A DNA stretch of 64,000 nucleotides from Daedaleopsis sinensis (lineage: Eukaryota > Basidiomycota > Agaricomycetes > Polyporales > Polyporaceae), in NCBI GenBank assembly GCA_033807695.1, contig CM066310.1, positions 3,286,001 through 3,350,000 on the forward strand. The letters are read 5' to 3'. The number at the start of each line of letters is the position of its first letter. The first letter of the stretch is position 1. Under the pieces are notes generated by a model. The model did no database searches. It saw nothing but the letters and a program-made list of their open reading frames with translations, and was not told the DNA's origin. Below, one piece after another: positions 6,226 to 61,390 of the stretch. The position numbers and the translations under genes were made by a program.

Positions 6226-8230
6226 ATGATGGCTGCAGTCCAAGAGCCACAGCAGCGGCGTGAGGCCTATACAGCTGCTGAGGGTCCTGATACGAGCGAC
6301 CAAGGATCTACACCCAACGACAGTTCAGAACCATCAGGAAAGACTCACGAAAAGGCGCCCGAGGTACATACATTCCCCTCTCCTTACGAATTTCAATCCC
6401 GCGAGCCCACGACTCTGGTCGAACTCCGGATGCGCAAGCTATCTGGAATGATTCGCGCGAAGCCGCGGTGGTGGGAGAAGGTCCACGATGAGGCGCTCGT
6501 AACCAAGTGGCGCGCGGAGATGCACGAGTACGACCGCGAGCGGATCGCGTTCGAATGGCGGCCCTACCCGGAGAATGAGGACGATGATGACCTCGACTAC
6601 AAGGGATGGCGCGTGAACCACTGGCACTGGCCGCCTAAACCTGTCACGGAGGCCCAGCTCGATTACGTCTTTGCAAAGCTGAAGCACTATGCTTCCCAGG
6701 TGGACGGAGAAACCGGAATACATGTACGTCTTCACCTTCTGTGCAGGTTTCTGTGCTGATGTAGAAAGTTCGTGGAGCACCTCGGTATACTGCGTTCACC
6801 AGTCGTGGGCCCTTGTCCCCACTGATGTGAAGGATTCACTCATCCGCGCTGTCGTGGTGCTCGAGTCTGTCCCTGATGAAGAGAAAGACTGGCATCCGGG
6901 TTCGAACGGCCAGGTTCTCGACCTAGTACACCCATCTCTCTACTGCTTACGAATCGGCAAGAGTCATTTCCGTCAGGGTGGCGACGGCGCGAATCCGCTC
7001 GAAGAATACTCCATCGAGGAATACACGGGACTCCGCCCTGACTTTGAAGAGTTCTCTGACTACAAGCGCAAGACGATCGTGTCTCAGAGGTACCAGTGGC
7101 TTCCCACTGATTTCAAAGTCTCCGAGGCAGGCGAGGTCGAGTGTCGCGGGGTTATCAACAACTTGCATCCAATCACCCACGAAGTGGTCTACCCCGCGAT
7201 CACCGCTGTCCTCCAGAAGTTCGTACCCATGTTCGAGCGCGTTCTCTCCGATGCACTGAGTCCGGAGCCGAATCGCGCGATAGAGGTCGACCCAACCGAC
7301 TGGTACGGACCGGAGCCCGACTTTGACAACGACGAGGACCACGATAGGTATAGGGAAGAACGCGAGCCTCATGTCCCAGAACCAGCTCCTTTCCAACCCC
7401 CCCGCTCCGGCCCTCGCATCGAAATCAGCCTCCGCGGGCGCACGCTCCAAGTGATCGTCAAGCTCGCGAACATCATACTAACGCCCGAGAATCCGCAATA
7501 CCCGGGTGGGACGTGGCACGTCGAGGGCATGCTCAACGAACGCATCGTCGCGACAGGCCTATATTACTACGCGTGCGAGAACATCACGGAGTCGCGGCTC
7601 GCGTTCCGCGTGCAGGTCGGGACGCACGAAGACAGCTCTGGCATGGCGTACGAGAGCGGCGACTACGATGGCTACCGGCACGTCTTCGGGTTCGCGAACG
7701 ATGACGCGCTCAACCAGGAGCTTGGGCACGTCGTCGCCGCCGTGGACAAGTGTGTCGCGTTCCCGAACATTTACCAGCACCGCGTCGAGCCGTTCGCGCT
7801 CGCAGACCCGACGCGTCCCGGGCACCGGAAGATCCTGTGCTTCTTCCTCGTCGACCCGTACCGCGAGATCGACTCGACGGCGCGCATCCCGCCGCAGCAG
7901 CGGGCGTGGTACACGGACGAGATGGAGCGGATTCCGGCGCTGCGTGCGTTGCCGCGGGAGCTGTACGACATGATCGCGGAGTATGCACTCGAGGGCACAA
8001 TCACGCGCGAGGAGGCGGAAGAGGAGAGGGAGAAGCTTATGAAGGAGCGGTCGGAGTTCGTGCTGCAGCACAACGAGGACGTCTTCGAGGTGAGGTTTCA
8101 ACTTGTGCGAACACTGATCAAGGCTGGCGCCCATCTTGTAGTGGAGGCTAGACGACTATGCTATATTTACGGCAGTGGGTCTCGCAGGCTGGGTAACAGG
8201 GTTTGGAATGCTCATAGTGGTTCGGACTAG
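6226..8230 (+). CDS. DUF4246 domain protein
   Basis: Large intracellular protein of the fungal DUF4246 family, whose role is not established. The ATG at 6226 follows a stretch with no other in-frame start. Exon 1 (6226-6723) carries a low-complexity head rich in Q, S and E and then the conserved RKLSGMIRAKPRWW region. A 79-base intron (6724-6802) removes in-frame stops. Exon 2 holds the hallmark blocks EKDWHPGSNGQVLDLVHPSL, PGGTWHVEGMLNERIVATG, YYYACENITESRLAFRV, and LPRELYDMI near the end. The 3' end is uncertain: reading on gives a stop at 8230, while a good intron at 8090-8141 would lead to a stop near 8274. The tail enters sequence that recurs at about 10845, so it may have been altered by the duplication described there. 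Confidence 0.8.
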
Positions 8231-21459: not shown

Positions 21460-22343
21460 CCGCATACTATTGCATCCTGAGCGCGACTATGACGCTAGTG
21501 CTACATAGGAGCATGATTGAGTTTGATTCTAGTCCGTAGTCTTCACTGCGGCCGCGCTGATAGTGAGATAAAGTGACAAATTCAGAGCTATTTCAGTGAA
21601 TGTAGCGTTCAAATGGAGAATTGTCCTATCGGTAGTGCATCACAGTTGTGCACAGTTGTTCACAATGTCTGGCTACGTCGTTGAGATCTACAGAGTAAAA
21701 TACCTCATGTAGCACTAGAGCGGCAGACAGGCAACATACTACCGATGACTTGGTGGCCAGACGTCTTGCACTGGTGTTCAAGGAGTACTTAGATGAAAGA
21801 TTGCTCACCACTGCGATCTAGTGGGGCTCAAGAAGCTCTGATTTACGTTGTGTGCGAGGGTCGCGCGTGTCTTCGTTGCTAGGAGTGGTCCATCAGCCGA
21901 GCTCGTATGCTCAGTCCCATTACGTCGCCGCGCCAACGATGGAGTACAGGAGAAAAGGTCAATAGAGCGGGCCAGTGGCTGACAGACATAAAGCTGAAAG
22001 ACGATACCTAAGGCGCAAGTATGTCTTCGTATATTAGTACGTATCCGGGTAGTGTGATGTATGCAGTGCAGTGATTCTCAGCGGACGCATGTGGACGGCC
22101 GACTTGCCAGTGATTGAAGTTTGTCAATCGACTCGGCTTCTAGTAGTCTTCAAGTGGCATGTCCTATGACCGGTGGACCTCAGTCGTAAGTCCACGAAAT
22201 TCAGAAGCAAGCACTCGGCAGCGACTCACGCTCGGCGTGACTCGGAGGAGGCACCCTAGACGCGTTACGTAACGCGTTCTGTCACATAACGCGTTGATTT
22301 TATCGAGCGCTAGTAGCAATGCTCCGGGCCAACGACGACTACT
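21460..22343. other. Intergenic between divergent genes
   Basis: Lies between the leftward precursor gene and the rightward F-box gene. No gene found. A short inverted stretch, cgcgttacgtaacgcg, lies just before the F-box gene (about 22261). Confidence 0.4.
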
Positions 22344-23634
22344 ATGTGCAGCTTATTGCAACCTTCAGCTTCAGATACGGCATTGCCGATCGATGTATTC
22401 TATCCCATCTGTGAAAACCTCGACACTGACTCTCTTCGAAGCATATGTCTCACCTGCCAAGGTCTCGTCGCCCCCGCCCAAGCGGAGTTGTTTCGAGCCA
22501 TCTTCCTGGGGACGGATCGATCGATGGCTCAGCTCGCGCAATGCCTGAATACCAACCCTTCCCTCGGGGGACTCGTTCGGAACATCACTTTCTACGAGGT
22601 TTCTCCTCCTCTGGATAACTTCCCCTTCTCCCGCTTGTCCGACCTTCGGACACTCGTCTTGCACTCAGTTTACTTCGATTCCTGGGATCAGTTATTCTAC
22701 GGCATCTTCCCCTCACTACCCACATTGAAATTCCTTATTTGTGACTGGACAATGCTGGATGACGATGATGGCGAACACTACTACCCAGTTCGATCTGCCA
22801 CATCCCCCCCAATCCCGGTGTCGCTGATATCACTCGTCGTAAATGATGGAGGCGACTACGCCGAGTTTGTTCAGGCGATTCTCCAAACAGGCATCGCATC
22901 CCGTCTTCGTCATCTCCACGTGTCGCCTTCTCCGATGGCTAACAACATCTGGTGGGTACCTGTCATACACGCCACTCGTCACACATTACAACGTCTCCGA
23001 GTCTCTCTCGACGACGATACCATTTATAACAAGGTAGCCCTACCAAATCCTTCCGGTGCGTATGGTTGCAGACTTCTAGACACGGAGCACCAGCTGACCC
23101 CCGGTCGCACCGTTAGATCCACCCATATGCTTGTTCGACGCAATTGCCGAAAGTCGACAACTATCCTCTCTGTCTTTCCAGTATTGCCCTCCCCACTTGG
23201 CTCAAGATGGGTCGGAGCTTCGCTCTGACGACATACTATATGCACTGAGTGCTGTCCTCGAGCAATCCCCCGTCTCTCTGCCCTGTCTGCGTTCCCTGAC
23301 GCTGCAGTTGGTCGACCGTGGACAGGTGCTGGATGAAGCCCCCATAGCCCGTCTCGCAAGCGCTCTTGCCAGTCGTGCACGGTACCCCTCTTTTCGGCAC
23401 ATCGCGGTCGTTGTGGAGCCTCAGAAGGACTGTAGCACGCAATCGGTCGTCGGTGGACTCGGATTCTGGCTTAGCAGCAAAGCGTCACAGTTAGACTACG
23501 AACCAGAGGAAGTCGTAGCGAAGTGGAGAGGCGCCTTCTCTCCTTTCGAGGAGGCTCCGGGGGTCGCTCTCAAGATCGAACTTGTTCTGGATCCTTCAGA
23601 ACGTAAGTCATGTCGTTTTCCTGAGTACTCTTGA
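22344..23634 (+). CDS. F-box/leucine-rich repeat-like protein
   Basis: Exons 22344-23055 and 23117-23634 join in phase (G|AT) to 409 residues. The unspliced frame would continue to a stop at 23228 but loses the family match; splicing restores DPPICLFDAIAESRQLSSL. F-box-like helices are at about residues 15-45 (ALPIDVFYPICENLDTDSL). The leucine-rich remainder ends in WRGAFSPFEEAPGVALKIEL, matching the end of the 14605-15803 gene, so the two are paralogues. Likely an SCF ligase adaptor; target unknown. Confidence 0.75.
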
Positions 23635-32824: not shown

Positions 32825-34588
32825 ATGAAGCCGATTCACCTCCTTCCCCTCATCCTTCTCGCTCTCTTCGCGGTAGTAGGCAAGGTACGTCATCGTCGGG
32901 CTTGAAGATGTATCGAATTCGGTCTTATACTTATGCTCTATATCTGGGCAGTCCCTGCCTCAAGACTCGTACTATGTTGAAGTGAAGTCGGACGGACTCG
33001 AGGGCCCCAGCTACGCCTGGGCCATCGGCGAAGACGAGGAGCGCCGGATCAGCCAGCTACTCGACTACGACATCCGAGACCTCGACTTCGTCGGGTTCAA
33101 CATGAACACCGTTCCAAAGATATGCCCCCATTGCGGAAAGGAGACGGAGATATACGACTGGTACGCCTTTCGAAGTGTCCTCTTGTCGTCCGAGGTATGG
33201 TATGAAGCATCCAGGCTCATGATGTCGTCGTGCCCGTGACGCAGGTTTTGGACCGCGCTCGAACGCGGCATCCACTCCAAGGAGTGGCTCATCCAGTCTC
33301 TCCGTAGCGGTCAGCTATCCCGCAAGAACGCACACGATGTGTATTGCTCTCGATGTGGGCACCTTACGGTGTTTCGCGATCCCACGGGCGACGAAGGCGG
33401 AATGCATCACATCGCTCATGCGACGGTACGTTTTTCTATGACATTATCGACTACAGCTACTTACCCCCTGCTTAGCCTTACGATCGCGCGACTCGAACCT
33501 TTGGTAAACGAGACGCTGTGCGTCAACTACATCTGCAGCATTGGGGATCTAGATGCTGACACCTCTTATGCTGCTGTACAATAGGAGGCAGCCGCTGCTC
33601 AGGAGATACCTGAAGGAACTGATGCAGGCTGGCGCACAAGCTGGCTCATCAAGAAGGACGCCGCCTCCGACTCCGTGGAGACACAGGGCTCTGAATCTGT
33701 AAGTCACAGCACTGTGTCGCTTTTAAGCTGTCGTTTAACGTTAACCCAGAAGTCCGACATGGCTGCCGACTCTGCTGTACCTGAGGCTGGGTGGCGTCCT
33801 TCGTGGCTCATCAAGAAAGAAAACGCTCCTGAGGAGACGAGCATCTTTGTAAGTTATCCGACAGGCTTATCCGTGTACACACGCTGGCTGTATTTCTACG
33901 CTAACCCGTGCTCCCTAGGAATCCGACGCCGACGTGCCCGAATCTGACGTCCCTGAGGTTGGGTGGCGTACCTCCTGGCTCATCAAGAGAGAGAACGCCC
34001 CCGAAGAGCTCGGGAGCACTGTGCGTGGTTCTTTCATACTCGACAGCAATTATTCTGACTCTGGGTTGCGTTGTCTACGCATCAGGGAACCAAGGTAGCG
34101 GATGCTCACGCTCTCGCACACGAGTCTGGGGAACCTTCTGAAGACGCTGTTGGATGGCGGCCCATCTGGCTTATCAAGAAAGACGACATGCCTGAAGAAC
34201 TGAAGGTTCGTGTGACTCTGCCCCTCCTCTTGGGATCAGATGTCTGAGTACTCACTATCTTTCGCCAACGCGTACTTACTAGGAGCCTGATGCCGACGTG
34301 TCCGACGTTCCTGAGGTTGGATGGCGGCCAATCTGGCTCATCAAGAAAGAGAATGCCCCCGAGGAACTCGAAGTGACGAAATCCGAGGCAGCGGATGCCC
34401 AGGCTGTCGATCACAATGCGGGGGAACCATCTGAAGACGCTGTTGGATGGCGGCCCATCTGGCTCATCAAGAAAGATGACATGCCTGAAGAATTGAAGGT
34501 TCGTCAGACCGCTCCGTCACCCTCCTCCCTGGATAAGGTGTCTTAGTACTCGCTAACCTTCCCCGTACAGGATCGTGAGAGTCTGTAA
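32825..34588 (+). CDS. Secreted repeat-peptide precursor, GWRxxWLI-KK type (KEP-like)
   Basis: Ten exons: 32825-32884, 32952-33160, 33245-33425, 33476-33517, 33585-33698, 33750-33848, 33919-34020, 34086-34205, 34283-34498, 34571-34588; 386 residues, every junction in frame. A signal peptide (MKPIHLLPLILLALFAVVG) resembles that of the precursor at 20718. Exons 2-3 code for about 130 residues with two CxxC pairs (ICPHCGKE and YCSRCGH), a possible zinc-ribbon. Exon 4 ends FGKRDA, and exon 5 starts EAAAAQE: a KR site followed by X-Ala dipeptides as in yeast alpha-factor leaders. Six cores follow: AGWRTSWLI-KK, AGWRPSWLI-KK, VGWRTSWLI-KR, then VGWRPIWLI-KK three times, separated by acidic spacers (ENAPEE, DDMPEE, SDVPEV). 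Exons 5-8 hold one core each and exon 9 holds two. Expected to be cleaved by Kex2 in the Golgi and exported. Function unknown. Confidence 0.8.
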
Positions 34589-34830: not shown

Positions 34831-36314
34831 TCACATCATCGACGCGTCCACCTTCCGCACCGACACATCGACCTCTATCCCGTGCTCCTCGAACCTGCTG
34901 AACATCTCCCGCGCCTTCGCAAGCCTGACCGCCGCATCGTACTGCACCATCAGCCGCGTCCCCGCATACGTCGTCATCTCCTCCAGCGCGACCGACAGCC
35001 GCGCGAACCGCGGGTATCGCGGGTGCCCCGCGGCCGTGCCGGTGAGTGCGTGCAGCAGCCCGGTCCAGGCGCCCCCGCACTGCGCGAGGCTCTCGATGTT
35101 GCAGATGAGGTCGAGCTTGAGCGTTTCGAGGTGCGGAAACGGCGATTCGCTGTCAGCGTGGGAAGGGACCGCGGCAGGCGACTCTGGAATAGTAGTGGCT
35201 GGGGAGGCGGGGTCGGGTGTGCGAGACGAGGAGAGGAGGGAGGCGAGCGCCTCGAGGAAGAAGGGCGCGATGATGGGGCTGGGGCTGATGCGGTTCTGGA
35301 CAACCTCGCGGATGAAGGTCGGAAAGCCGTCGTACTTAATCCGCAGCGAGCGCAAGGACGGACATCCGAGCAGCGCATTGTAGAGGCTCGTGACTCTGTC
35401 TCCTGCATGGGCGGATAGTAATGGGTGAGTTCTACGTACACATGCACATTTGAACGTAACAATAGCATGGTCCATGGATGGAAGGATTGGCACTCACGTA
35501 GTTGCTGCTTGCTAAACCCAATGTTGACATCGTCGCCCGACACGACGACGTCGTTCACGGTGACCGCGCAATGCTCGAGGGTTGGTCCGATGGCGGGGAA
35601 GAGCGGAATACACACGTGCGTGCTTGCGGAGTCGCCGAGGAGGTTCAGCTTCGTGAGCGTCGACAGCTCGCCCATCTCCGCCAGTACCTGTGCCAGCGCG
35701 AACGACTCATGTTGCCTGACGTGACGTCGCCCAGAGAGATCATTTAGAACTAGTGCTTTCAGAGCTCTTGCACGGGTAGCGGTCTTGCGGATCTCAACGG
35801 GATGTTCTGTAGTCTGCCAACGTGTTTCGGGAGTGTCACTGACGTCGCCCCGAACCGTCACTTGGTCAAAGATGAGGATCTCGAGGAGGGGGAAAGAGCA
35901 GATGGCGGTCTTCGCCACCTGCGCTAGGGATGTGCAACTGAATCCCGAGATCGCAAAGCAGCGTAGCACAGACATGTTTGCGTATTGCCGGAGGAGGCCG
36001 TCTCCGGGCCACGGAATCGACTGCCAACGCTTTGCAGCGAGACAAAGTGTCTTCACGTGTCGACATATGTCGGTGTCCTGTTGGATGAGGTCGTCGAACA
36101 GCTTCCTTCGACTCTCCGACGGAAAGGTGAGAGTAACCTCTGCAAAGAGGTGATGTCGTGCTCGCCGTTGCCAGTGTTTACAGACGAGAGCGCAAGCCGA
36201 TAGACTTTGGAGATCGTCTTCCAGGCAATCGATGATGTGGTCGACTACATCTTGATTAAGATGAGGTATGTGTATCTCGGGAGCTCCTGAGATGTCAATG
36301 ACTCGCTGTGCCAA
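34831..36314 (-). CDS. F-box/leucine-rich repeat-like protein
   Basis: Exons 36314-35498 and 35402-34831 join in phase (C|GA) to about 462 residues. F-box-like segment at about residues 15-50 (HLNQDVVDHIIDCLEDDLQSLSACALVCKHW), then a leucine-rich body and a C-terminal block (FPHLETLKLDLICNIESLAQC... YPRFARLSVALEEM) shared with the genes at 52401 and 55838. The start is uncertain: there is no in-frame ATG at the head of the open frame. The frame runs up to a good acceptor (catag, about 36345), so a small upstream exon is likely, as in the two paralogues. Probable SCF adaptor. Confidence 0.7.
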
Positions 36315-36345
36315 GTAGAGCTCGTGGGACGAGACGTACTCCTAT

Positions 36346-36836: not shown

Positions 36837-36970
36837 AACTTTCGCGACAAGACTCAGGTTGACCTCCTCCTCGACGACCGCCTACCCGGTGCTACTGCCT
36901 GGCCTCCGAGTACTCTGAGTCTTGTTCTTGTTTGCTGAGTCATTGCACTGAGATCGCTTGCTGTTGTCCT
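36837..36970. repeat. Outer direct repeat X, left copy
   Basis: About 134 bases (starting aactttcgcgacaagactca, ending cttgctgttgtcc) almost identical to 46378-46510 in the same orientation. It abuts the B2 repeat of the Ngaro-like element. It could be part of that element or a host sequence duplicated around it. Confidence 0.75.
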
Positions 36971-36971
36971 C

Positions 36972-37080
36972 TCACGTCTAGGCAACACGCATAGAGTGTT
37001 GTAGCAAGACTCGGACGCTCCGGCGCGTGGCCAGGGGAGCGTCCAGTGGTACGTGTGGTTTTTTCGCGAGTACGAATGGG
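36972..37080. repeat. Split direct repeat B2
   Basis: Starts tctcacgtctaggcaacacg and ends cgcgagtacgaatgg; nearly identical to B1 at 37530-37632 and in the same orientation. Confidence 0.8.
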
Positions 37081-37146
37081 ACGTGCTAGATACAGTTTTG
37101 TATACGTACGAGAGGTAATATTGCCAAAGAGGCGGGATGGAGGGTA

Positions 37147-37481
37147 GCTGAATTCGACGTGAGATCGCCTCGAGCCTGGGCTGGCGAGTCGAGAGTTGGA
37201 AGTCAGCCAACAAGAAGCTAACGGGCGCACGAGGGACGGGCTGTGGTGCGTACCTGGCGAGTCGTGAGTTGGAAGTCAGAAGGAAAGAGTGGACTCCTGA
37301 CTTCCGACCTCACGACCTACCCGACCACTGGCCCTCTGTGCGCGCAGCACGAAGCCGACGGCAGAGCACAGCTGCTCCGGAAGAGGAAGAGAGGGGGCGG
37401 CGCATGGCTGTAGTCAGCCTCGCCCGAGCCGCCTGAGCGGCGGCGCGTGCCGCTTTAAGGGCGGCCGCGCACGCTGATTCA
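37147..37481. repeat. Split direct repeat A2
   Basis: About 335 bases (gctgaattcgacgtgagatc to ccgcgcacgctgattc) nearly identical to 45320-45651, the A1 copy beyond gag. One visible difference is gaagccgac versus gaagctgac. Confidence 0.85.
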
Positions 37482-37529
37482 ACTCGTGTAAATCCTCACT
37501 TTAAACCCGACAAATCTGCGGCGCTCTCA

Positions 37530-37632
37530 CGTCTAGGCAACACGCATAGAGTGTTGTAGCAAGACTCGGACGCTCCGGCGCGTGGCCAGGGGAGCGTCCA
37601 GTGGTACGTGTTGTTTTTTCGCGAGTACGAAT
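37530..37632. repeat. Split direct repeat B1
   Basis: Copy of 36972-37080 next to the recombinase end. Confidence 0.8.
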
Positions 37633-37883
37633 GGTAAGAAAGCTAAGAAAAGGAAAAGAAAAGGAATTATGTGAATATAATGTTCGAGCGTGAAAGGATA
37701 GAGACGCGAGTGGTGAGAGAGAGATGTCTGAGAACGGAGTGGGGATTGTAGTTTAGTTTTAGCAGTTGTTTGACCCGAGAGATGGGAGATACGAGCAGAA
37801 AGGAAGAAATTGTTCAAATGAAATGATTCGCGGGGGGCGCTCGGAAGCGGGCGCTCGGGAGCGCGGACGTGGAGAGGTCACGA

Positions 37884-38891
37884 TCAGAAACTGGAGAGAC
37901 CCGGGGTGTTCTGTTGTTGGACGAACATCATCGCGTGGAGCACAACGGGGTGCTCGCGGATGTATATCTGCCATGCAGTTGAGGACCAACATCCAATTGC
38001 TTGAATCGTCGGGCCGGGGGTGCCCTCGATTGCAAGTGCAGTTGCTCCACCGGCGCGCATTGAATGCCCGCTGATGTCGGCTGGGAAGAAGTGGCGGAGC
38101 TTGCGAATGAACCAGGCACGGGTGGGGATATGTCCATTTGCTTGCAGCCATAGCTCCGCGCGTAGTGGGAAAAGCTTATCCCGTGCTGTCAAGTAGCGGG
38201 TGAAAGCGGTGAATGGGTCAGCGCCACGCGTGTACCTTTTGACGAGGATAGTGTCGCCGGCAAAGTTCTTGTCGGTTTTGTGGGAATGTAGCTGGAACTG
38301 GAAGTCATCCGCGTGGACAACGACGGACGTTCGGCGAGTTACTTTGTGGAAAGTGCGGAGTCGATGACTATCTGGCCAGACCAACTCGCCGAGTTGCATG
38401 AGGCCGTTGAAGCCCGTGAGAATGATTGCCAGGAAAAGGGAGTCGTCATGTTGATCTGATGCGGAGAGGGTACTGTATACGAGATTGAGGTCATCGCGTG
38501 TGAGCGCGCGCTTCCGACGGACTGGTTTGCTATACAAGCGCTTGCATCCTTTTAAGGTACGCGAGACGAGCGGCGAGCGGCGGCGTGCGCGAATATCAGG
38601 GTAGAATGGTTCGAGTTCGCTACAGATCCCCGAGAGGTAGGAGTCGACGGAGCGGGGCTCAATGTGATGGGATTGAAACACAACATATAGGCTGAGGTTG
38701 TTTTCGGTCGGGTGGATCTGGAAGCGATGAAGATCACAGAACGTGAGATAGGAATTGAGTGCTGAGGAGTACGAGGCTGCTGTAGATTGTTCGAGCGCGT
38801 GCTCGAGCGCGATTGCACGCTCGTGGAGCAAACGCTCGAGAGGCCACGCCTGCCTGGGAGGCTGACGCGACATGTGTGAAGTGGGGATCAT
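37884..38891 (-). CDS. Ngaro tyrosine recombinase
   Basis: 335-residue tyrosine recombinase that would integrate the circular DNA intermediate. The C-terminal boxes are present: GHSMRAGGATALA holds H-x-x-R, and the likely nucleophile is the Tyr in WQIYIREHPVV. The first catalytic arginine, normally in a motif like GLLRLGELVWP, is Gln here (GLMQLGELVWP), which should abolish strand transfer. One C-to-T change of a CGA or CGG codon would explain this. The N-terminal part (ATAASYSSALNSYL-like) resembles a SAM-like core-binding domain. It starts within a few bases of the RNase H stop. Confidence 0.85.
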   Translation of the reverse strand: MIPTSHMSRQPPRQAWPLERLLHERAIALEHALEQSTAASYSSALNSYLTFCDLHRFQIHPTENNLSLYVVFQSHHIEPRSVDSYLSGICSELEPFYPDIRARRRSPLVSRTLKGCKRLYSKPVRRKRALTRDDLNLVYSTLSASDQHDDSLFLAIILTGFNGLMQLGELVWPDSHRLRTFHKVTRRTSVVVHADDFQFQLHSHKTDKNFAGDTILVKRYTRGADPFTAFTRYLTARDKLFPLRAELWLQANGHIPTRAWFIRKLRHFFPADISGHSMRAGGATALAIEGTPGPTIQAIGCWSSTAWQIYIREHPVVLHAMMFVQQQNTPGLSSF

Positions 38892-40024
38892 TTTTTCATT
38901 GCCCCCATCGCATCCTGAGGGGGTTTAAAGGGGAAGACCCGCAGTGCGGGGTCGAGCTGCGAGGCAAGGTCCAGGTTGCCACGTGAGAGAGCGTCGGCTA
39001 TCGAGTTGTATCGGCCGGGCACATGGTCTACTCGGAGTTCCATCTTGTCTGCGATGAGTATGTCTATGGATGAGACAAGAATGCTGTTGTAAATGGGGGA
39101 GGCGCGGAGGGTGTTGAATGCAGCCACTGTGTTCATGTTGTCGGACAAGACCGCGAGTCTTGACACCCGGCGGTTAGCCTTCTTCCAGATATGGACGCGA
39201 TGCACGGCGCTACAGACGGCGAGCGCCTCGAACCAGAAGATAGCGGCAGTCGGGGCGTCTGAAGGACAGTCGCAATAGAAACCCATGTGTAACCAAGGGA
39301 AGTACATGCCTAGGCCTCGTCCTGAGGCATCTACCAATGCGAACTCGTCGCTTTGAAGTCCCTCCACCAGGTCTGCCGGCGTCCATGCGAGAGACGAGAG
39401 GATGCGAACACCATCAGCCGCGCGCAGATGACGTGCGAGCCACTGTAGCTCTCGGATGACTCCCGCGTTGACATAGATACCAGCGCGTTTGGCGGTTTTG
39501 CCTGCCATTTTTGCATAGCACGATGAAAGCGATGGGCGGAGGAGGGGAAAGACATTGAACGCCCAGTTCGCATAGCCTGTGAGCGCTTGGAAATCCCGGA
39601 GAGAGTGACACCGGTCGCCTGAGGTGTCGCAGAAAACTTCTATGGCATCAAGAAGTCGTTGCTTCCCTTCGCACGGGAGGGTTACCGTGAAGCTGCTAAC
39701 GTCGACTTCAAACCCAATGATAGGGCAGATGACGCGAGCGATTTGTTTTGTCTCGGAGTGTGGCACTTGGAGTTCGTCCCACAGCAAGAGCAGCTGGACT
39801 TGTGGACTGGGGAGGAGTTTCTGGTAAGGCTCGTACCAGCGGCAGTCGCTCAAGAGCGCAGGGCCGAAGTTGTCGTCGACATAGTTGGCCATGTGTTGTA
39901 TCCCGCGCTTAGTGGTTGCGATCCAATGTACTAAACAGTTGAACGCCGCCCAGATGCGCAGAGATGCGCGGCCCCCAAAGACATTACAGCGGTCGACATG
40001 TCGCAGCCCATCTATCGTGACCAC
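38888..40024 (-). CDS. Reverse transcriptase (3' part) and RNase H
   Basis: The part downstream of the insertion. VVTIDGLRHVDRCNVFGGRAS continues directly from WQIKQ on the far side of the inserted element. The polymerase site HMANYVDDNFG has the YVDD box. RNase H residues are recognisable: VDASGRGLGM (D), FWFEALAVC (E), SDNMNTVAAFN (D) and HVPGRYNSIADALSR (D). Once a single polyprotein with the segment at 42447-43190; now separated by 2.4 kb. Confidence 0.85.
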   Translation of the reverse strand: MVTIDGLRHVDRCNVFGGRASLRIWAAFNCLVHWIATTKRGIQHMANYVDDNFGPALLSDCRWYEPYQKLLPSPQVQLLLLWDELQVPHSETKQIARVICPIIGFEVDVSSFTVTLPCEGKQRLLDAIEVFCDTSGDRCHSLRDFQALTGYANWAFNVFPLLRPSLSSCYAKMAGKTAKRAGIYVNAGVIRELQWLARHLRAADGVRILSSLAWTPADLVEGLQSDEFALVDASGRGLGMYFPWLHMGFYCDCPSDAPTAAIFWFEALAVCSAVHRVHIWKKANRRVSRLAVLSDNMNTVAAFNTLRASPIYNSILVSSIDILIADKMELRVDHVPGRYNSIADALSRGNLDLASQLDPALRVFPFKPPQDAMGAMKK

Positions 40025-40035
40025 CTGTTTGATCT
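40025..40035. repeat. Target duplication of the foldback element, low side
   Basis: Minus strand AGATCAAACAG; the other copy (42459-42469) reads AGATCAAGCAG. Ten of eleven bases match. The sequence codes for the QIKQ of reverse transcriptase. Confidence 0.7.
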
Positions 40036-42458
40036 CACTAGCTGTGGTAGTTCTGATGTATTACGAACAGGTACTTTGTCTAAGCCTTATTGCAATAGGA
40101 ACAGGCAGGACATATGATGTATTACGAAGCCCTGGGGAGGTCCTGGGCACCATCAGCTTGGCAAACCCAATTAGGCAAAGGGGTGCAAAATGCTTGATAT
40201 CTGGCAAATTAAGCACATCAAAGGCTTATCTCTATAGATAATAGCACTATTAGGCCTGTCCTGGGCGTGCCTTTGAGCGCTTATTTTCGTTCCAGCATTC
40301 CCACACCTCCTGCACCTGATTAGGTAATTTGCTGGGGGGCTACTATAGGTGGGGGATTGGTTCCACTATTGCTCCCTCAATTCTGGATGGATTTGGATGG
40401 TTGTAGGTGCATTGGAAAGGTATTGTAAGGGCCATTCAAGCGCACCATTAAGGGGGTATACTCTAGCTACATGCATGCTATAAATTGCAACCTGATAGGC
40501 ATAAATGCAGGTTTTCAATGGGGTATAGCCTACTTAGTTCTAAGTGGACATATGGGTGTTCTATCTTCCTAGAATACAGTACAAGAGCACTCTCCAACAA
40601 GCCCATGATCATAGAATTTCATCCAGTGGTTGGGGAGATATACTTTCCCTGCCCATAGGGAGGAGGAGGAGTCAGTGTATCTCCACTAATTATGGTCAGA
40701 ATTCTTTCCAGTTTTTTAGAATACACCCTACATATATACTAAATGTAGGGTGGCTATGGTTCCTGGCCATAAAATATCAAGAGCTATATATAGGAGGCAA
40801 CTAATACTTCAGCCACAGAGGTGTTCCATCCTAAATATAATGTGCAGTTCGTGATGTGCACTGATGGTAAATATACTGCTGGAAAGCCACAGCCTGTATC
40901 TTTCTAACGGTATAAATATCATGTATGACCAGAACTCATGCATAGACTGTGTACATGTACAATTATATTGCCGGACACTGTGTCTGTGGCAGGTGTCTTG
41001 AAGTGTCTTAAAGTGTCTTAAAGTCTTAATCTGTGTATGGGCCACATATCATGCAATTCTTCACTGTTTCCAATAAATTTGTACTCATTCAATAGGTACT
41101 GAAGGTGATTATGTGTATGCAACATCAGATCTTTGGTAGTGTCATGCAAAAAAATAATTGTGGTGCAGACCACTTGAGATACATATATATCTGCACTAAC
41201 AGCTTGGTATACCAGACTACTACATGTGTAGAATCAGAAGGTAAGAATACTACCTGTAATCTATGTATATGAATGTGTCTACAGCTTAGTGAACCCACTA
41301 CATCCACATATCTTGTGCATAGACCGTAAAGATAGTATACATATGTTCCTCTTAAACTGCTACATATAGTCGGAGTTTGGAAATACTTAGTGAGCTGTTG
41401 CATATCTAGTTCTTCATCTGTGGGTCAAATTTTGGGCACACAGATACAATATGTATGTAGCTATCCATCAGAATGAGATTTAGTTAACGATTCATAGAGA
41501 TATAAGCATATGCCTGTTTAATGGGGCCAGGAGGAGAGGGTGGTAGTACCAGATGATTTTGTAGATCAATTGCCATGATATTTATACCGTTAGAAAGATA
41601 CAGGCTGTGGCTTTCCAGCAGTATATTTACCATCAGTGCACATCACGAACTGCACATTATATTTAGGATGGAACACCTCTGTGGCTGAAGTATTAGTTGC
41701 CTCCTATATATAGCTCTTGATATTTTATGGCCAGGAACCATAGCCACCCTACATTTAGTATATATGTAGGGTGTATTCTAAAAAACTGGAAAGAATTCTG
41801 ACCATAATTAGTGGAGATACACTGACCCCTCCTCCTCCCTATGGGCAGGGAAAGTATATCTCCCCAACCACTGGATGAAATTCTATGATCATGGGCTTGT
41901 TGGAGAGTGCTCTTGTACTGTATTCTAGGAAGATAGAACACCCATATGTCCACTTAGAACTAAGTAGGCTATACCCCATTGAAAACCTGCATTTATGCCT
42001 ATCAGGTTGCAATTTATAGCATGCATGTAGCTAGAGTATACCCCCTTAATGGTGCGCTTGAATGGCCCTTACAATACCTTTCCAATGCACCTACAACCAT
42101 CCAAATCCATCCAGAATTGAGGGAGCAATAGTGGAACCAATCCCCCACCTATAGTAGCCCCCCAGCAAATTACCTAATCAGGTGCAGGAGGTGTGGGAAT
42201 GCTGGAACGAAAATAAGCGCTCAAAGGCACGCCCAGGACAGGCCTAATAGTGCTATTATCTATAGAGATAAGCCTTTGATGTGCTTAATTTGCCAGATAT
42301 CAAGCATTTTGCACCCCTTTGCCTAATTGGGTTTGCCAAGCTGATGGTGCCCAGGACCTCCCCAGGGCTTCGTAATACATCATATGTCCTGCCTGTTCCT
42401 ATTGCAATAAGGCTTAGACAAAGTACCTGTTCGTAATACATCAGAACTACAACAGCTG
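40036..42458. mobile_element. Foldback element with 0.9-kb inverted arms (MULE-like)
   Basis: A 2423-base insertion. Arms 40036-40923 and 41574-42458 are inverted copies nearly identical over their length (a small difference is ggaggaggaggagtc against its shorter counterpart). The centre (40924-41573) is AT-rich and unpaired. No transposase. Very long terminal inverted repeats and an 11-base target duplication are typical of Mutator-like elements, so I infer a non-autonomous member. AT-rich, unlike the GC-rich retrotransposon around it. The matching open frames in both arms are by-products of the symmetry. Confidence 0.8.
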
Positions 42459-43190
42459 CTGCTTGATCTGCCAGTATGGCGACATGGGAAGTTGACGATA
42501 AGCTTGGGATACGTCCGACTTCCAGAGGATGATCGGCTCGCCGGCATGTTCCTTGCGCAATTCGCGGAGATCGCGACCGAGAACGGGGATGCTGTCAAGG
42601 ACCGCACCCTTGATTGCTTCCGGTCTGATGAGTGAGTTAAGCGAGAACACGCCTGCACTCTGATCATTCACGAGGCGGAGTTTTGATGTGCCCGGCTTGG
42701 GTACTACATGAATCGGCATGTTGTGCATACCAGGCAGAAGGTCTACACCGAACGCGGGGGAGTATCGGCCTAGACGGATCTCCTCGTCGCGCTGGTCGCG
42801 CAGGAACTGGCGCGCGGTCGAGTCGTTTGGCTCTGCGCGTACCTCATCGTGAGCGTTCGGGAATCCTGTAGGCCGTGGGTCCGCGAATGGCCAGAAACCA
42901 ACGCGAAGTCCCTTGACGACTGAGCGCACGAATGGTTGATTAGGATGATCCGCTAGGAGGGCCTCGAACCGGTCGGTGAGAATGGGGGATACGATTTTGA
43001 AAAGGTGCGGGTGAGACAGTAAGGTGCGGTTGATTTCGGGATCCTCGCGGACATCCTGTGGGACGTCCGGTAGAGGGAGGTGTGTCAGCGAAACGTGTCC
43101 GAAGCGAGAGAAATCCGCGTCGGCATCGGAGTCGCTCCAGACGAAGCCACGCAGGAAGCGCGGCTTCGCCACCGACTCAGGCCTGTCCGC
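42447..43190 (-). pseudogene. Reverse transcriptase, 5' part, interrupted
   Basis: The frame is open from 44408, but only from about FLRGFVWSDSDADADF (near 43170) does it read like the pol product; upstream of that it is a shadow of gag. Includes LPGMHNMPIHVVPKPGTSKL, LRLVNDQSAGVFSLNSLI and WKSDVSQAYRQLPMSP, the first catalytic Asp block. It is broken after WQIKQ by the foldback element. Gag and pol are in different frames, so expression would have needed a frameshift or re-initiation. Confidence 0.8.
42459..42469. repeat. Target duplication of the foldback element, high side
   Basis: Minus strand AGATCAAGCAG, partner of 40025-40035. Confidence 0.7.
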
Positions 43191-44375
43191 CCGTTCCCTT
43201 AGTGCATTGGGGCTTGGCGTGCCCAACTCCACCGCAGGATGCGCATGCGTGTCGGTACCGACAGGCGCTGGCGAGATTCGAGCAACATCCGAGGTTCCAG
43301 TTCCGGCAGACCTCGGTCCTGCGCGGCGAACACTTTCCTGATGGGAGAGGCTCCTTTGCCTTTTCAGCGGGCGTTGCAACGACGGCCGCTCCGAGGGAGT
43401 CAATGAATTGAGTTCGCAAGTTAGCGAACTCGTGCACGTCGGAGAGCAAGAGGGTCCGCACGCCGGCGACGTGTTTGCGCACCGCGCGGTCAAATTCGAA
43501 GACACGGGGGTGGAACATGGTAGCGAGCGCTCCAAAAAGGCCGTGGATATATTTTCCGTAGGCTCGTAGTTCGAGTCGGCGACCTGGGAAGGCGTAGGTC
43601 GTCGCGTCTGCCGTGATGTCCCACGCAATGTTCCAGTCAGCGGCACATCGGATCCGTTTCGCTGGCTCTCGGGTTCCGAAAGCGAGCTCAACGTCTCCGA
43701 TACGCTGAGTGAGCCGGGTGTCGGGGTCGTTAGAGAACGACCCGGAGAAGACTTGGTCGAGGTCCACAGGCCTTCCCGAGAGTACATTGATCCACTCGCT
43801 CTCCGGGAACTCGGGTGCTGAAACTGAGCTGATAATTTCAGCTTTTGCTTGTCGGACGTCCTTCCGGTAGATTCGGAGCAGTCTAAGCGTCTCTTGGAGC
43901 TCAGGACGCAGGGCGTGCTTGAGGACTCTGTCAGCGGGGATCCAAGCGTAGTCGTCCGGATCGACTCTCGAGCGCTTGGAGCACGGCAGTCCTTCTTCGT
44001 CGGAAGACTCTTCATCGGACGAGTGAGCAGAACCGCGCTGTCCGGCCTGGGTCCTACGCTTCTCGCCGGACTCAGGAGGCGTGCCTGCAGCGGAGTGCGT
44101 GGGCGCGCTTCCTCCAGTAGCGGCTGAGGTCGCGCCACCGGCAGCTGCGAGTTGAGCGCGAGCACCGGGGTTTCCAACGCCTCCATTCGCGACTGCAGGT
44201 TGCGCTCCGGTGACGGGGGGATTCCCGACGGTATTCCCAGCCGCTCGGCCAAGCTCAGCCGAGGCGGCCCCTGACGCCTTTCCCTCTCGCTCCCGCTGGG
44301 CTTCCAAGAGCATCTCGAGGTATGAGTCGAAAGTGGATGCGTACTCTTGTTTTGATAGTTTACTCGGGGGCTTGG
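43177..44375 (-). CDS. Ngaro Gag-like protein (main part)
   Basis: About 400 residues from DAKPPSKLSKQEYASTF through the capsid-like helical region (YAWIPADRVLKHALRPELQ, RIRCAADWNIAWDITADA) to two zinc fingers near the end: VCRNWNLGCCSNLASACRYRH (a CCCH-like finger) and CASCGGVGHAKPQC, a C-x2-C-x4-H-x4-C knuckle. It would bind the element RNA and form particles in the cytoplasm. Its N-terminal part is on the other side of the small insertion, so the gene is split. Confidence 0.75.
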
Positions 44376-45062
44376 CATCTGCAAAAAGTCATATGCATTG
44401 CGAGGCATTGAAATGCCTCCAATACCTTACAATACGTCCAATACTGGGCCCAAGATTGTGAGGCATCCCACGGCATCTTAGTGCATTATAATGCCATATA
44501 ATTACGGTTTCTGTATTACAAGCACACATAACCCTTCCAATATCAGGCCCAAAAAGGGAATAAATATTAGTTGTTACACGGGCCCGACCAAAACATTACT
44601 ACCACCCACCCACACCTTTCAACCAACGGTCACTAGTCTCAGATATATCCCTCCATCAGAGCTATTGAGAATGTTGCTTGAGGGATTGAACCGGCAACCA
44701 CATGGCCCAAATCTTTGCACTCTCATTTACCACTGCACTACTACAGCTTTATATATATCCAAAAGTATCTACCTATATACGCTTATCTGGGACCTAGTTC
44801 AAACCATAAAGTTATGATTTAAAATATATGATTGACTCCTAGTGTCTGTGACATATCTTCCTGGAGACATTTGGGGTCCTTGCAAGTCACAATAATAATT
44901 GGGCAGCTCTCTGAAGCCCTCAAAAGTTGTGGGCTGAATTTCAATACCTCACAATACCAGCCAAGTATTATATGGTATTGGATGTATTGCAAGCGCATGT
45001 AATGTAAGGATGAAATTTCAATGCTTCCAATGCTATCTAATGCAAATGACTTTTTGCAGATG
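44376..45062. mobile_element. Small inverted-repeat element inserted in gag
   Basis: 687 AT-rich bases whose outer ends are a perfect inverted repeat, catctgcaaaaagtcat, followed by imperfect pairing (atatgcattg / tttgcatta). No coding capacity. The flanks share only gg, so any target duplication is about 2 bases. By chance or design its ends look like splice sites (aaa|gtcatt ... tttttgcag|), but splicing there would not keep the gag frame. Confidence 0.65.
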
Positions 45063-45266
45063 GGAGAGGAGAGCCGAGATAGTAAAGAGGGCTTGAGGCC
45101 TTCCTGTGTCTCCTTTCCGGAAGCTCTCCACGACTGCCTCGCATTTTCGCACGATTTCAAGTCGGGCATCGCTGGTGGTTTCAACCGCGGGAGCAGCACT
45201 AGCTCCGGATGTAGATTGCGATTGGGCGACCGATGCTTCGGCTGGGTTTGTCTCGCCATCCGCCAT
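45051..45266 (-). pseudogene. Ngaro Gag N-terminal part
   Basis: MADGETNPAEASVAQSQST opens a 72-codon segment ending ISALLSHLQK at the small insertion. The ATG lies just inside the A1 repeat, as expected for the start of gag. Separated from the main gag body by 0.7 kb. Confidence 0.65.
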
Positions 45267-45317
45267 GGAAACGATGTTGAAAACTGATCGATAGATGTAG
45301 CGTAGCGACTTATATAT

Positions 45318-45653
45318 AGCTGAATTCGACGTGAGATCGCCTCGAGCCTGGGCTGGCGAGTCGAGAGTTGGAAGTCAGCCAACAAGAAGCTAACGGGCGC
45401 ACGAGGGACGGGCTGTGGTGCGTACCTGGCGAGTCGTGAGTTGGAAGTCAGAAGGAAAGAGTGGACTCCTGACTTCCGACCTCACGACCTACCCGACCAC
45501 TGGCCCTCTGTGCGCGCAGCACGAAGCTGACGGCAGAGCACAGCTGCTCCGGAAGAGGAAGAGAGGGGGCGGCGCATGGCTGTAGTCAGCCTCGCCCGAG
45601 CCGCCTGAGCGGCGGCGCGTGCCGCTTTAAGGGCGGCCGCGCACGCTGATTCG
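45318..45653. repeat. Split direct repeat A1
   Basis: Copy of A2 (37147-37481) upstream of gag in the minus orientation, so it should hold the element promoter. Confidence 0.85.
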
Positions 45654-55837: not shown

Positions 55838-57366
55838 TCAACAAACAGACACCTCGACCTCGATCCCCGCGTCCGCGAACATCGAGAGCATGTCCCGCCC
55901 CTTCTGCGCCCTCGCCTCCGCCTTCTTCCCGTACGGGAAGGGCGGTATATCAGGGCGGTACCCAGGGTCGTTGAGCCGCACGCCCACGCGCCGGAAGCGC
56001 GGATACCGGTAGGTACCCCGACCCCGACTCCCGCCCGTGCCCGTGCCCGTGCCGACGAGCGCAGAGAACAGCGCGAGCCACGCGTCCCCGCACCGCGCGA
56101 GGCTGTCGACGGACGCCCGGATGCCGAACGAGAGCGTCTCCAGGTGCTGGAGCGGCGGCGGGCCCCGTGCGAGGACGGCGGCGAGCTCGTCGAGAAAGAA
56201 GGGCGACAGGAGCGGGCGCGGGTTCCACGAGTCGACCCGCTGGGCCTGGTCGTAGGAGGGGTATCCATCGTACGTGATGTGCAGCGAGCGCAGGCGCGGA
56301 CAGCCTGGGAGCGCCGCGTACAGCTTGACAATGCTCTCTCCTAAGTACATAGCAGATCGTGAGTGCACCGTGGAGACCTTGACGGGCCGCGCCGATGGGC
56401 CCAGCACAGAAGCGACGGGGAGAAGTACTCACGAAGCTCGCATTCGGCCTTGTTGAAGTAGAAATAGTCGCCGGTCCCAGTGACGTCGGGGACAATGTCG
56501 TTCACAGCGAGGGACAGATGCGCCAGCGACCGTCCAAGCGCGGGGAAGAGCGGCAACCACGCGTGCGACACGCCGGCGTCGCTGAGGAGGTGCAGCGAGG
56601 CCAGCGCTGCGAGCTCGCCCGCTGCAGCGAGGTATCTGGCGAGCGCTGCTGACGCCCACTCCGTGGTGTCGTTTACGCCATCGAGATAGAGCAGCGAGAG
56701 GCTCTTGAGGGGCGCGGAGCGCGCTCCTCCTGCCGTGAACGCGCGCAAGGGTGGGGGCTGCGTCCATCGGGGCTCGGGATCGCGCCAATCGAGGTCCAGG
56801 TTGGTGAGGGTGAGGGTGTCGATCTGTGGGAAGGCGGCGATGACCACCTGGACCATCGCAGGCAGCGAGTCGCCTATGAAGCCGTCGAGGGTGACAGAGC
56901 GGACGTTGGCGAGGCATGCCAGATCCGGGCTGAGCGCACGGTCCGTCCAAAGGAAGCCGTCGTGATAGGATTCGCCCATATGCAGTTGGTGTATGCCGTC
57001 GTACACAAGATGGAGGTCTCTCACGCAGGATCCCAGAGCGGGATTCGCGTCTGCGAGGTTTAAAATTGCCTCGGCTCGTCGACTGGCCGGGATGTACCTA
57101 GGATTGGAGGATTTGGAAGGGAGCGTGATCTTGGCAAAGATATGGCGACGCGCAGTTGCGTTCCAGAGACGGCTCACAAGAGAGCACAGGCACATCGTGT
57201 GCATGTCGTCGTGCAGGTTCTCGAGGACTTTGTCGAGGAGCTCCGGCACCTCCAGTGCCGTGAGGTCCGCATGTCCTCCACTCCTATGAGAGATAATCGG
57301 GTGCGTTATCTAAAATTCAGGAGTCCCGTTCTGTTCTGAAGCTACGATGAAGACGTACCCATCCAT
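55838..57366 (-). CDS. F-box/leucine-rich repeat-like protein with an 8-base first exon
   Basis: Exons 57366-57359 (ATGGATGG), 57283-56433 and 56340-55838 join in phase to 453 residues. As at 52401, the large exon has no suitable ATG, and a micro-exon with a gtacgt donor supplies it (M-D-G-SGGHADLTALE). F-box-like segment VPELLDKVLENLHDDMHTMCLCSLV. The body and C-terminus (PHLETLSF-like, YPRFRRVGVRL, KGRDMLSMFADAGIEVEVSV) match the other copies. Nearest relative by eye is the gene at 52401, with identical intron positions. Probable SCF adaptor. Confidence 0.75.
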
Positions 57367-60028: not shown

Positions 60029-60526
60029 CTACACCAACGCGGGCAGGCATCCGACCCCGAGCAAGCCTACGTCCGATGCACAAAATCGTCAGTAAGCATC
60101 CATGCAACAATCCAAGCCGTGTCCGCTCACCGAACTCGCCCGCGCAGCACACCGCATTCGCAGAACTAAAAGAAGAGAAAAAGGATCTCGCATTCAACCC
60201 GACACTACACTGGCGAGCGACTCCGCAACTCACCAGGCGCCCCCAGCGGCGATCGGCGCACACGCGATCCCGACGGGCGTCGCGGCGTCCTGCACGGCGG
60301 CGCCGACGGCAGCGAGGAGCGTGCGCGCGGCGGGGCTCGTCGCGGGCTCGACGGTGTGGCAGCAGAGGAGGGCCGCGACGGCCCCGCCGCACAGGCCAGA
60401 CGAGCCGTTCCCGATGGCGGAGCTGTCTGGGGCGGGGGCGGGGAGCGGGGTGGCGGCAGCGAGGATTGAGGCGAGGGCTAGGCCGAGGACGGCGAGGAGG
60501 CGTGGGGTGGAGGTGAGGATGTGCAT
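60029..60526 (-). CDS. Divergent class I hydrophobin (hydrophobin 10)
   Basis: Exons 60526-60234, 60165-60131 and 60066-60029 give 121 residues. Signal peptide MHILTSTPRLLAVLGLALAS..., then LCGGAVAALLCC (8 residues between cysteine 1 and the CC pair, against 5 elsewhere), GIAC, split cysteine (TG|T rather than TG|C), ANAVCC and GVGC. Eight cysteines. The middle exon is 35 bases, three fewer than in all the others, and the third is also 3 bases shorter. Very alanine-rich. The same intron positions show common descent; this is the outlier of the set. The open frame runs on upstream, but the ATG at 60526 starts the signal peptide. Confidence 0.8.
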
Positions 60527-61390
60527 GTCTGCAGTGAGGGTGTGTGGACGATGGGTAGTGGACTCGGGAGGGATGGATCTGGTCTTGGCTGGAGAGGGCA
60601 CGCGTGATATACGCGTCGATTCGGATGCGTAGACAGAGGTGCGTGCCGTGCCGTCGACGTCAACTCGATTCTGCGTCGCATACGTACTGACCGGGGTTGC
60701 TAGATCTATTCCAAGTATTACCAGGGTCGTCGCATTCAACTCGGTGACCTCCAGTGGTGCTGTGTCCCTCCTGAAGCCTTGAGATATCAACGTTTTTCCG
60801 TTTTCGACGAAGGAGATGGTGAGAATCCCGCGCAGAGTTGAATGTAATGCCTTGCTATTGACCGCGAGCCGCAGTCCCCCAAGCTGATAGAGCGTGCGTG
60901 CTTGCGGGCAACTCAATTCTAATCAGTTCATCATCGATCTTCTCTCAATGAGCACCCCCGGATCACGACGTCATGAACCACTAGGAATCTCGCGCTTCTC
61001 ACCGCCTTCCACCCGCGAAGGTGAGTCTGTTTGAACGAGAAGGCGCGGAAAGAGAGGTGGTTCTCGACGGTGCTTGTTCCTGCTCAGCGATGTGCGTTGA
61101 CGTAAGTCCTCGGGTCGCGAGGGGAAAAAACAAAGTCGATACGCACTCACCGGACCTCACCATACAAACTCATGTACCACCTGAGACGGAGCTGTATGCG
61201 CATGGGAACGAGACGCGTTCGCTGCAACGGTGACAGGGCGCGAGTAGTCACAGGCACGTGATGCACTAGTTTGTGGAGGCGCCGGTGTGTGACCGAATTC
61301 GAGCGGCTCGAAGTGTCCTCGTCGGGACTTGGCGCGGTACCACCACCATCGTCCTTTGGGCCTTCCTCATCCTCTCTCGAGCTCTGGACG
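60527..61390. other. Intergenic between divergent genes
   Basis: Between hydrophobin 10 (leftward) and the homeodomain-like gene (rightward). A TATATC lies near 60608 for hydrophobin 10. Open frames here are upstream extensions without an ATG. Nothing else. Confidence 0.4.

Follow-up and report, generated by a model that had tools for sequence, protein, structure and literature searches.

The window analysed here, a stretch of 64,000 nucleotides from Daedaleopsis sinensis, contains a predicted gene that, on a balance tipping only just in its favour, encodes a secreted Kex2-processed precursor of linear, tryptophan-paired peptides with a likely role as extracellular signals. Daedaleopsis is a genus of wood-rotting polypores. 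The predicted protein consists of a hydrophobic N-terminus, a conserved front domain with the pairs CPHC and CSRC, the sequence TFGKR and six units that each end in GWRxxWLI-K[KR] (Table 1).

The ten-exon model at 32825-34588 on the plus strand gives an intact frame of 386 residues, and its nine introns are 50-84 nt long, all bounded by GT..AG and in phase 0 in eight cases. At the level of sequence comparison, this model is supported by homology. An annotated protein of Fomes fomentarius reads ...TPYDPATRTFGKRDADAAA... over the joins of exons 3, 4 and 5. The least obvious join is the donor of exon 4, where GCT/GTGCGT preserves the frame and yields TFGKRDA-EAAAA, in agreement with TFGKRDADAAA of the Fomes protein. 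Introns 2 and 3 occupy the same positions in two paralogues, C3 and C12:2101k, and both have intron 1 where the signal peptide ends. Residues 5-19 have a mean Kyte-Doolittle hydropathy of +2.46, against +0.64 for the best stretch beyond residue 25; judged from hydropathy alone, such an N-terminus is consistent with a signal peptide. Exon 1 is also nearly identical in the C3 paralogue and in P0040 of Daedaleopsis nitida. The ten-exon gene model with a predicted signal peptide that had been proposed in a first-pass annotation of the sequence is thus upheld, the exon joins by the Fomes protein and the paralogues, and the signal peptide by hydropathy and the conserved first exon.

Table 1. Predicted exons, cleavage site and cores of the precursor gene (positions in the window), and loci of its paralogues in the genome.
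Feature	Position	Strand	Exon or basis
Exon 1: predicted signal peptide MKPIHLLPLILLALFAVVGK	32825..32884	+	model, hydropathy, likeness to paralogue and D. nitida
Exon 2: conserved domain, first half, CPHC (aa 78-81)	32952..33160	+	model, alignment
Exon 3: conserved domain, second half, HDVYCSRCGHLT, second CxxC (aa 124-127)	33245..33425	+	model, alignment
Exon 4: PYDRATRTFGKRDA, carries predicted Kex2 site	33476..33517	+	model, Fomes homology
Predicted Kex2 site KR that would free the pro-domain	33506-33511	+	within exon 4
Exon 5: repeat unit 1	33585..33698	+	model
Core 1: GWRTSWLI + KK	33627..33656	+	exon 5
Exon 6: repeat unit 2	33750..33848	+	model
Core 2: GWRPSWLI + KK	33789..33818	+	exon 6
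Exon 7: repeat unit 3	33919..34020	+	model
Core 3: GWRTSWLI + KR	33961..33990	+	exon 7
Exon 8: repeat unit 4	34086..34205	+	model
Core 4: GWRPIWLI + KK	34152..34181	+	exon 8
Exon 9: repeat units 5 and 6	34283..34498	+	model
Core 5: GWRPIWLI + KK	34319..34348	+	exon 9
Core 6: GWRPIWLI + KK	34445..34474	+	exon 9
Exon 10: DRESL and stop codon	34571..34588	+	model
Paralogue	C3:480k		
Paralogue	C11:3360k	-	
Paralogue	C12:2101k		
Paralogue	C12:2170k		
Paralogue	C12:2272k		
Paralogue	C12:2275k		

All six GWRxxWLI cores of the first-pass annotation are present, varying at positions 4-5 between TS, PS and PI as it had described, and 6/6 end at a dibasic site (KK in five, KR in one) that lies two residues past the second tryptophan. 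The 12 tryptophans beyond residue 160 all sit inside cores. The spacers are acidic, again as claimed, with 5-10 D/E versus 0-1 K/R each. The pattern W..[KR][KR] was observed six times in the tail of this gene versus 0.15 expected from letter shuffles of the tail, which rules out a chance origin of the repeats. The octapeptide predicted earlier is delimited at its C-terminal end by the dibasic site but not at its N-terminal end, as no dibasic site directly precedes GWR in this gene. Kex2 cutting alone would give fragments of 24-40 residues that are acidic at the front and hydrophobic at the end.

That cores should be conserved more than spacers had been set beforehand as a check, and within the gene its outcome favours the precursor reading: the cores have a pN/pS of 0.19-0.20 versus 0.45-1.15 for the flanks. 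For units 1-4, the ten core codons give pS 0.61 and pN 0.12, and a gap-free alignment of the flanks gives pN 0.50 for the eight upstream codons and 0.44 on the downstream side; the core boundaries were picked by conservation, which favours low pN, and the fair comparison is therefore the many synonymous changes. Compared with the C3 paralogue, core pN/pS is 0.46, above the within-gene value. Within the clade of this gene, conservation is fair in [DE][ND]xPEEL as well, the block that follows the cut, so that a longer fragment may be the product.

The same pattern is found in relatives. In the tails of 22 of 41 proteins, W..[KR][KR] was observed 60 times versus 3.3 expected by letter shuffles; repeats inside one protein are not independent, and the 19 unscored proteins, among them P0010 with its WCQRC cores, have no tail or a short one by pattern. 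Across 31 scanned rows (27 of the 40 database proteins and four of the seven own loci), 79 such sites occur in 19 rows, and a second tryptophan lies four residues back at 47/79 sites, nine back at 17/79, five or six back at 11/79, and elsewhere or nowhere at 4/79. Different genera keep the tryptophans at the same places before the cut. The Fomes homologue contains WHPIWLV-KK and WRPIWLI-K among different spacers, and WCQRC-type cores recur in Lentinus, Polyporus, Trametes gibbosa and Daedaleopsis as well as in this genome. The core is flanked by dibasic sites at either end in the Lentinus and Polyporus relatives (KK-AAWCQRCTAGNWLI-KR), and peptide release is therefore the simplest purpose of these sites. 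P0024 of Cubamyces sp. has a quite different repeated core, YGWDTISC[IL][AT]KR, in five copies.

The front domain and the gene family of this precursor are findings beyond the first-pass annotation. The domain, of about 100 residues, is common to 12/12 homologues in alignment A1, where 32 columns, including both CxxC pairs, are invariant; the pairs remain invariant across 33 rows. A direct homology search returned 13 homologues, all named for polypore genera, and a profile search returned 39 matches. PF26731, whose members have the front domain in common with this precursor, is present in 12 of the 13 direct homologues and precomputed on 34 of the 39 profile matches, and a Pfam scan of this protein did not report it. 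This Pfam family takes in proteins that look non-secreted as well as the precursors, and a literature search found no paper that mentions it. A search by title and abstract, outside of which lie the supplementary lists of the surveys of Kex2-processed repeat proteins (KEPs), found no paper on the precursor family either. With the repeat region as a probe, P0001 was the sole return among 7996 scored candidates; by that search, these cores were not found outside the family.

Six further loci in the genome carry the whole front domain or part of it; C11:3360k, one of these, lies some 39 kb away from this gene. Of the 11 cores in the C3 paralogue, eight read KWRSAWLVKK, the C12:2101k paralogue has four WCQRCVLGNWIIKR cores, and C11:3360k has WSDIWNIKR and WAHYWLVKK, while the C12:2170k member looks degenerate. 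C12:2272k (L034) and P0018 have a front domain without evident Kex2 repeats, a type present in D. nitida too; these members represent either a secreted domain alone or one that lost its repeats. The N-terminus of D. nitida P0040 equals that of this gene at 84 of 90 residues when the printed sequences are compared, and in a tree of the front domain, D. nitida proteins are the partners of three other family members. This tree holds 29 of the 40 database proteins and six of the seven own loci; it excludes partial models, models with introns, P0013, P0016, P0037-P0039 and the degenerate C12:2170k. This gene, C3, Fomes P0001, C11:3360k and two Earliella proteins form a six-row clade (support 100/99), in which the fork of the first four has a support of only 82/61 and the Earliella proteins are without such cores. 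The WTR/WQR-type rows fall into a ten-row clade (100/97), in which five further rows have other cores or none. On the tree, the WCQRC core type needs two changes, and its rows branch nearest the root on weakly supported forks. Core types in the main track the front-domain tree, yet they drift inside clades too: WSDIWNI and the two Earliella proteins that lack such cores belong to the same clade as this gene.

In ten profile matches (P0029-P0035 and P0037-P0039) the front domain occurs in another, non-polypore lineage. Six of these models (P0029, P0031-P0034 and P0037) begin far ahead of the domain and contain no hydrophobic stretch, and agaricomycete relatives with complete N-termini look non-secreted on this basis; the other four models are cut at the front, so that an absent hydrophobic stretch says nothing there. 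Some polypore models (P0005, P0017, P0024 and others) also have no hydrophobic stretch, and most of them start inside the domain. Near the end, W-x2-W-W-L-D-x2-G is found in 7/7 of the ten non-polypore matches that reach far enough; among P0029-P0035 and P0037 the invariant tail is present in seven of eight, and P0032 ends before it. No relative of the non-secreted type was found in this genome, where the 12 matches of P0033 all belong to the precursor family. In the tail, the spacing from Trp to Trp-Leu is the same as in the GWRxxWLI cores. Tail and core may have a common ancestry, an idea weakly backed because its basis is a spacing match of a short motif, and the WCQRC rows, nearest the root and with a spacing of 9, speak against it. 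An AlphaFold model of the Fomes protein places WLVK of the first core (residues 201-204) in a short strand, in a block with a pLDDT of 71, while the rest of the tail is mostly of low confidence; the strand hints that the front domain may hold the core.

Polypores might have turned an intracellular protein into a peptide-hormone factory by gaining a signal peptide, multiplying the tail and adding Kex2 fences, a scenario that, with all its parts taken jointly, is rather improbable. The ancestor would have been a non-secreted domain with the invariant W-x2-W-W-L-D tail that is still seen in other mushrooms; this tail, which has the same Trp-x3-Trp-Leu spacing, would have become the peptide cores through exon duplication; and the front domain, which would earlier have held its own tail, would now serve the tryptophan cores as an escort through the secretory pathway before being removed. 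If true, this origin would show a secreted peptide family arising from an ordinary intracellular protein.

The layout that the first-pass annotation recognised is that of the KEP class, which is home to alpha-factor-like and dikaritin precursors; the comparison draws on parts of Le Marquer 2019 (PMC6339444), Umemura 2020 (PMC7329392) and Vogt 2022 (PMC9769878). KEPs of Agaricomycetes have a signal peptide, at least three similar repeats, dibasic sites between them and a Kex2-type gene, and the present gene combines an N-terminal hydrophobic signal, six similar repeats and dibasic sites between them with a Kex2-type gene in the genome, where one P_proprotein match, to the Kex2 P-domain, lies at C2:3704560-3704871. 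This family differs from other KEPs in its front domain, common also to non-secreted-looking proteins, and in its paired-Trp cores ending in W-x-x-K[KR], whereas the cores in those parts of the surveys end in C-terminal -ADW or -PSW.

In the processing route that we infer, the signal peptide would direct the precursor into the secretory pathway, and the front domain with its two CxxC pairs would serve as a pro-domain that is removed at TFGKR. Kex2 would cut after every KK or KR, and removal of the basic residues by Kex1 would give ...GWRxxWLI. The acidic N-terminal part would be shortened by aminopeptidases to an end that the sequence does not fix. In the genome, a DPPIV_N match marks a candidate dipeptidyl-peptidase gene. 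The peptides, presumed linear, would be exported and then sensed by a receptor. Linear, minimally modified KEP peptides were found by mass spectrometry in four agaricomycetes according to Vogt 2022, and one pair, DDDPEGPPAPSW and GPPAPSW, stems from the non-repetitive end of its precursor and differs by an acidic stretch (PMC9769878). A signalling role is suggested because the cores are conserved and because Le Marquer et al. 2019 argue for such a role from Ste13-marked basidiomycete precursors (PMC6339444). In Vogt 2022, Coprinopsis knockouts of six other KEP genes had no phenotype (PMC9769878).

Of the likeness to alpha-factor precursors noted earlier, the repeat layout stands: ascomycete precursors of this type also have repeats with dibasic ends and tryptophan in their cores. 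The alpha-factor family, however, is absent among 16 Pfam matches at E up to 10, and the XA/XP dipeptides of the Ste13 type are mostly missing, occurring here after the leader site and one of the six cores only, and family-wide at 17 of the 79 W..[KR][KR] sites. Ste13-like XA/XP runs are clear in the Earliella relative P0004 and weak in this gene. For mating, Basidiomycota are said to do without alpha-type pheromones (PMC6339444). A STE2 search of the genome gave no matches, but the controls were silent too, so that it carries no information on receptors. A STE3 search gave 24, on C4 and C5 and none on C11; the gene is therefore not at the pheromone-receptor loci found, and a link to mating type was rejected.

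Dikaritin precursors (ustiloxin, phomopsin, asperipin) likewise have a signal peptide and Kex2-bounded repeats, and UstYa-type oxidases could cross-link or cyclise the cores before or after Kex2 cutting: the layout is that of ustiloxin-type precursors, each core offers two tryptophans for cross-linking, and the genome has 12 UstYa (PF11807) exon matches. The closest of these on the contig is 0.97 Mb off, however, and 0/12 lie in C11:3266001-3369800, a stretch that begins about 52 kb before the gene, ends about 49 kb after it and takes in near flanks of the kind to which the first-pass annotation had pointed. The six other family loci have no UstYa match within 0.8 Mb either, and the dikaritin reading is unsupported because this holds for all seven loci. 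A scan of 103.8 kb around the gene found no HxxHC motif, which 7/8 UstYa loci do show (some of these loci overlap; one shows none). The neighbourhoods of the paralogues contain a single such motif, at about C12:2283.9k, without a PF11807 match; a divergent or intron-split UstYa could escape both profile and motif scans. By the main genomic criterion, a UstYa gene clustered with the precursor, dikaritin membership was rejected. Known dikaritin cores are cross-linked through Tyr or Phe, whereas the cores of this gene contain no Tyr. Among 20 long ORFs of the window compared with Pfam, no modifying enzyme of a known RiPP pathway was found, and most had no match at all. Umemura 2020 gives UstYa neighbours for 103 of 1680 basidiomycete KEPs (PMC7329392). 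A dikaritin-like RiPP, in which a divergent or distant oxidase would act on the cores, is accordingly regarded as quite unlikely.

The whole fragments of 24-40 residues, with an acidic head and a Trp/Leu/Ile tail, might instead assemble on hyphae as surface-active structural peptides, which is what the Kex2 products of Rep1 of Ustilago are. This fits the polarity of the fragments and the conservation of the block after the cut, but in the WCQRC-type proteins P0002 and P0005 a dibasic site splits the acidic spacer from the core, so that the amphiphile is not general, and the tryptophan positions before the cut are kept between genera; such a function is unlikely. Variable cores on a conserved front are a pattern seen in defence peptides, and cores that vary between and partly within clades, atop a conserved front domain, could belong to antimicrobial or inhibitory peptides whose targets are other organisms and not the producing fungus. 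A biotic role was suggested for other KEP peptides by Vogt 2022, in which those tested nevertheless had no antibacterial activity (PMC9769878). WCQRC-type cores kept in four genera and a within-gene core pN/pS of 0.2 also weigh against such targets, which leaves this role rather doubtful. In a further reading the protein stays uncut, with its repeats bound to the front domain or to a partner. This would accord with the single similar Trp-rich tail, without an adjoining dibasic site, of the non-secreted-looking relatives and with the moderately confident AlphaFold strand at the first Fomes core. It is nonetheless highly improbable, as the N-terminus is hydrophobic and a dibasic site past the second tryptophan, in 6/6 units and in 19/31 rows, has no evident reason if the protein is uncut.

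Kex2 repeat-protein peptides are described by Vogt 2022 as widespread in mushrooms, with largely unknown functions (PMC9769878). This family offers a handle on them: it has one conserved front domain, several paralogues in one genome and some cores that are conserved between genera, which allows matching peptides to be made synthetically and set side by side. Should its front domain bind the cores, the family would also be a testable case of a fungal peptide precursor that brings its own escort.

Elsewhere in the window, a probable DIRS- or Crypton-like mobile element spans 36854-45616, with identical 300-nt direct repeats (37145-37444 and 45317-45616) and perfect inverted arms of 884 nt (40040-40923 and 41574-42457); its ORF at 37887-38924 (-) resembles a tyrosine recombinase by eye and has no Pfam match. 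A DUF4246 protein is encoded at 6683-8227 (+; PF14033, E 7e-115), and a weak hydrophobin match under the cut-off lies at 60233-60922 (-; PF01185, E 3e-4). F-box-like proteins with weak Pfam matches under the cut-off are found at 34977-36341 (-) and 56344-57309 (-). ORFs at 22317-23225 and beside the C11:3360k paralogue look like them by eye, which suggests a local expansion.
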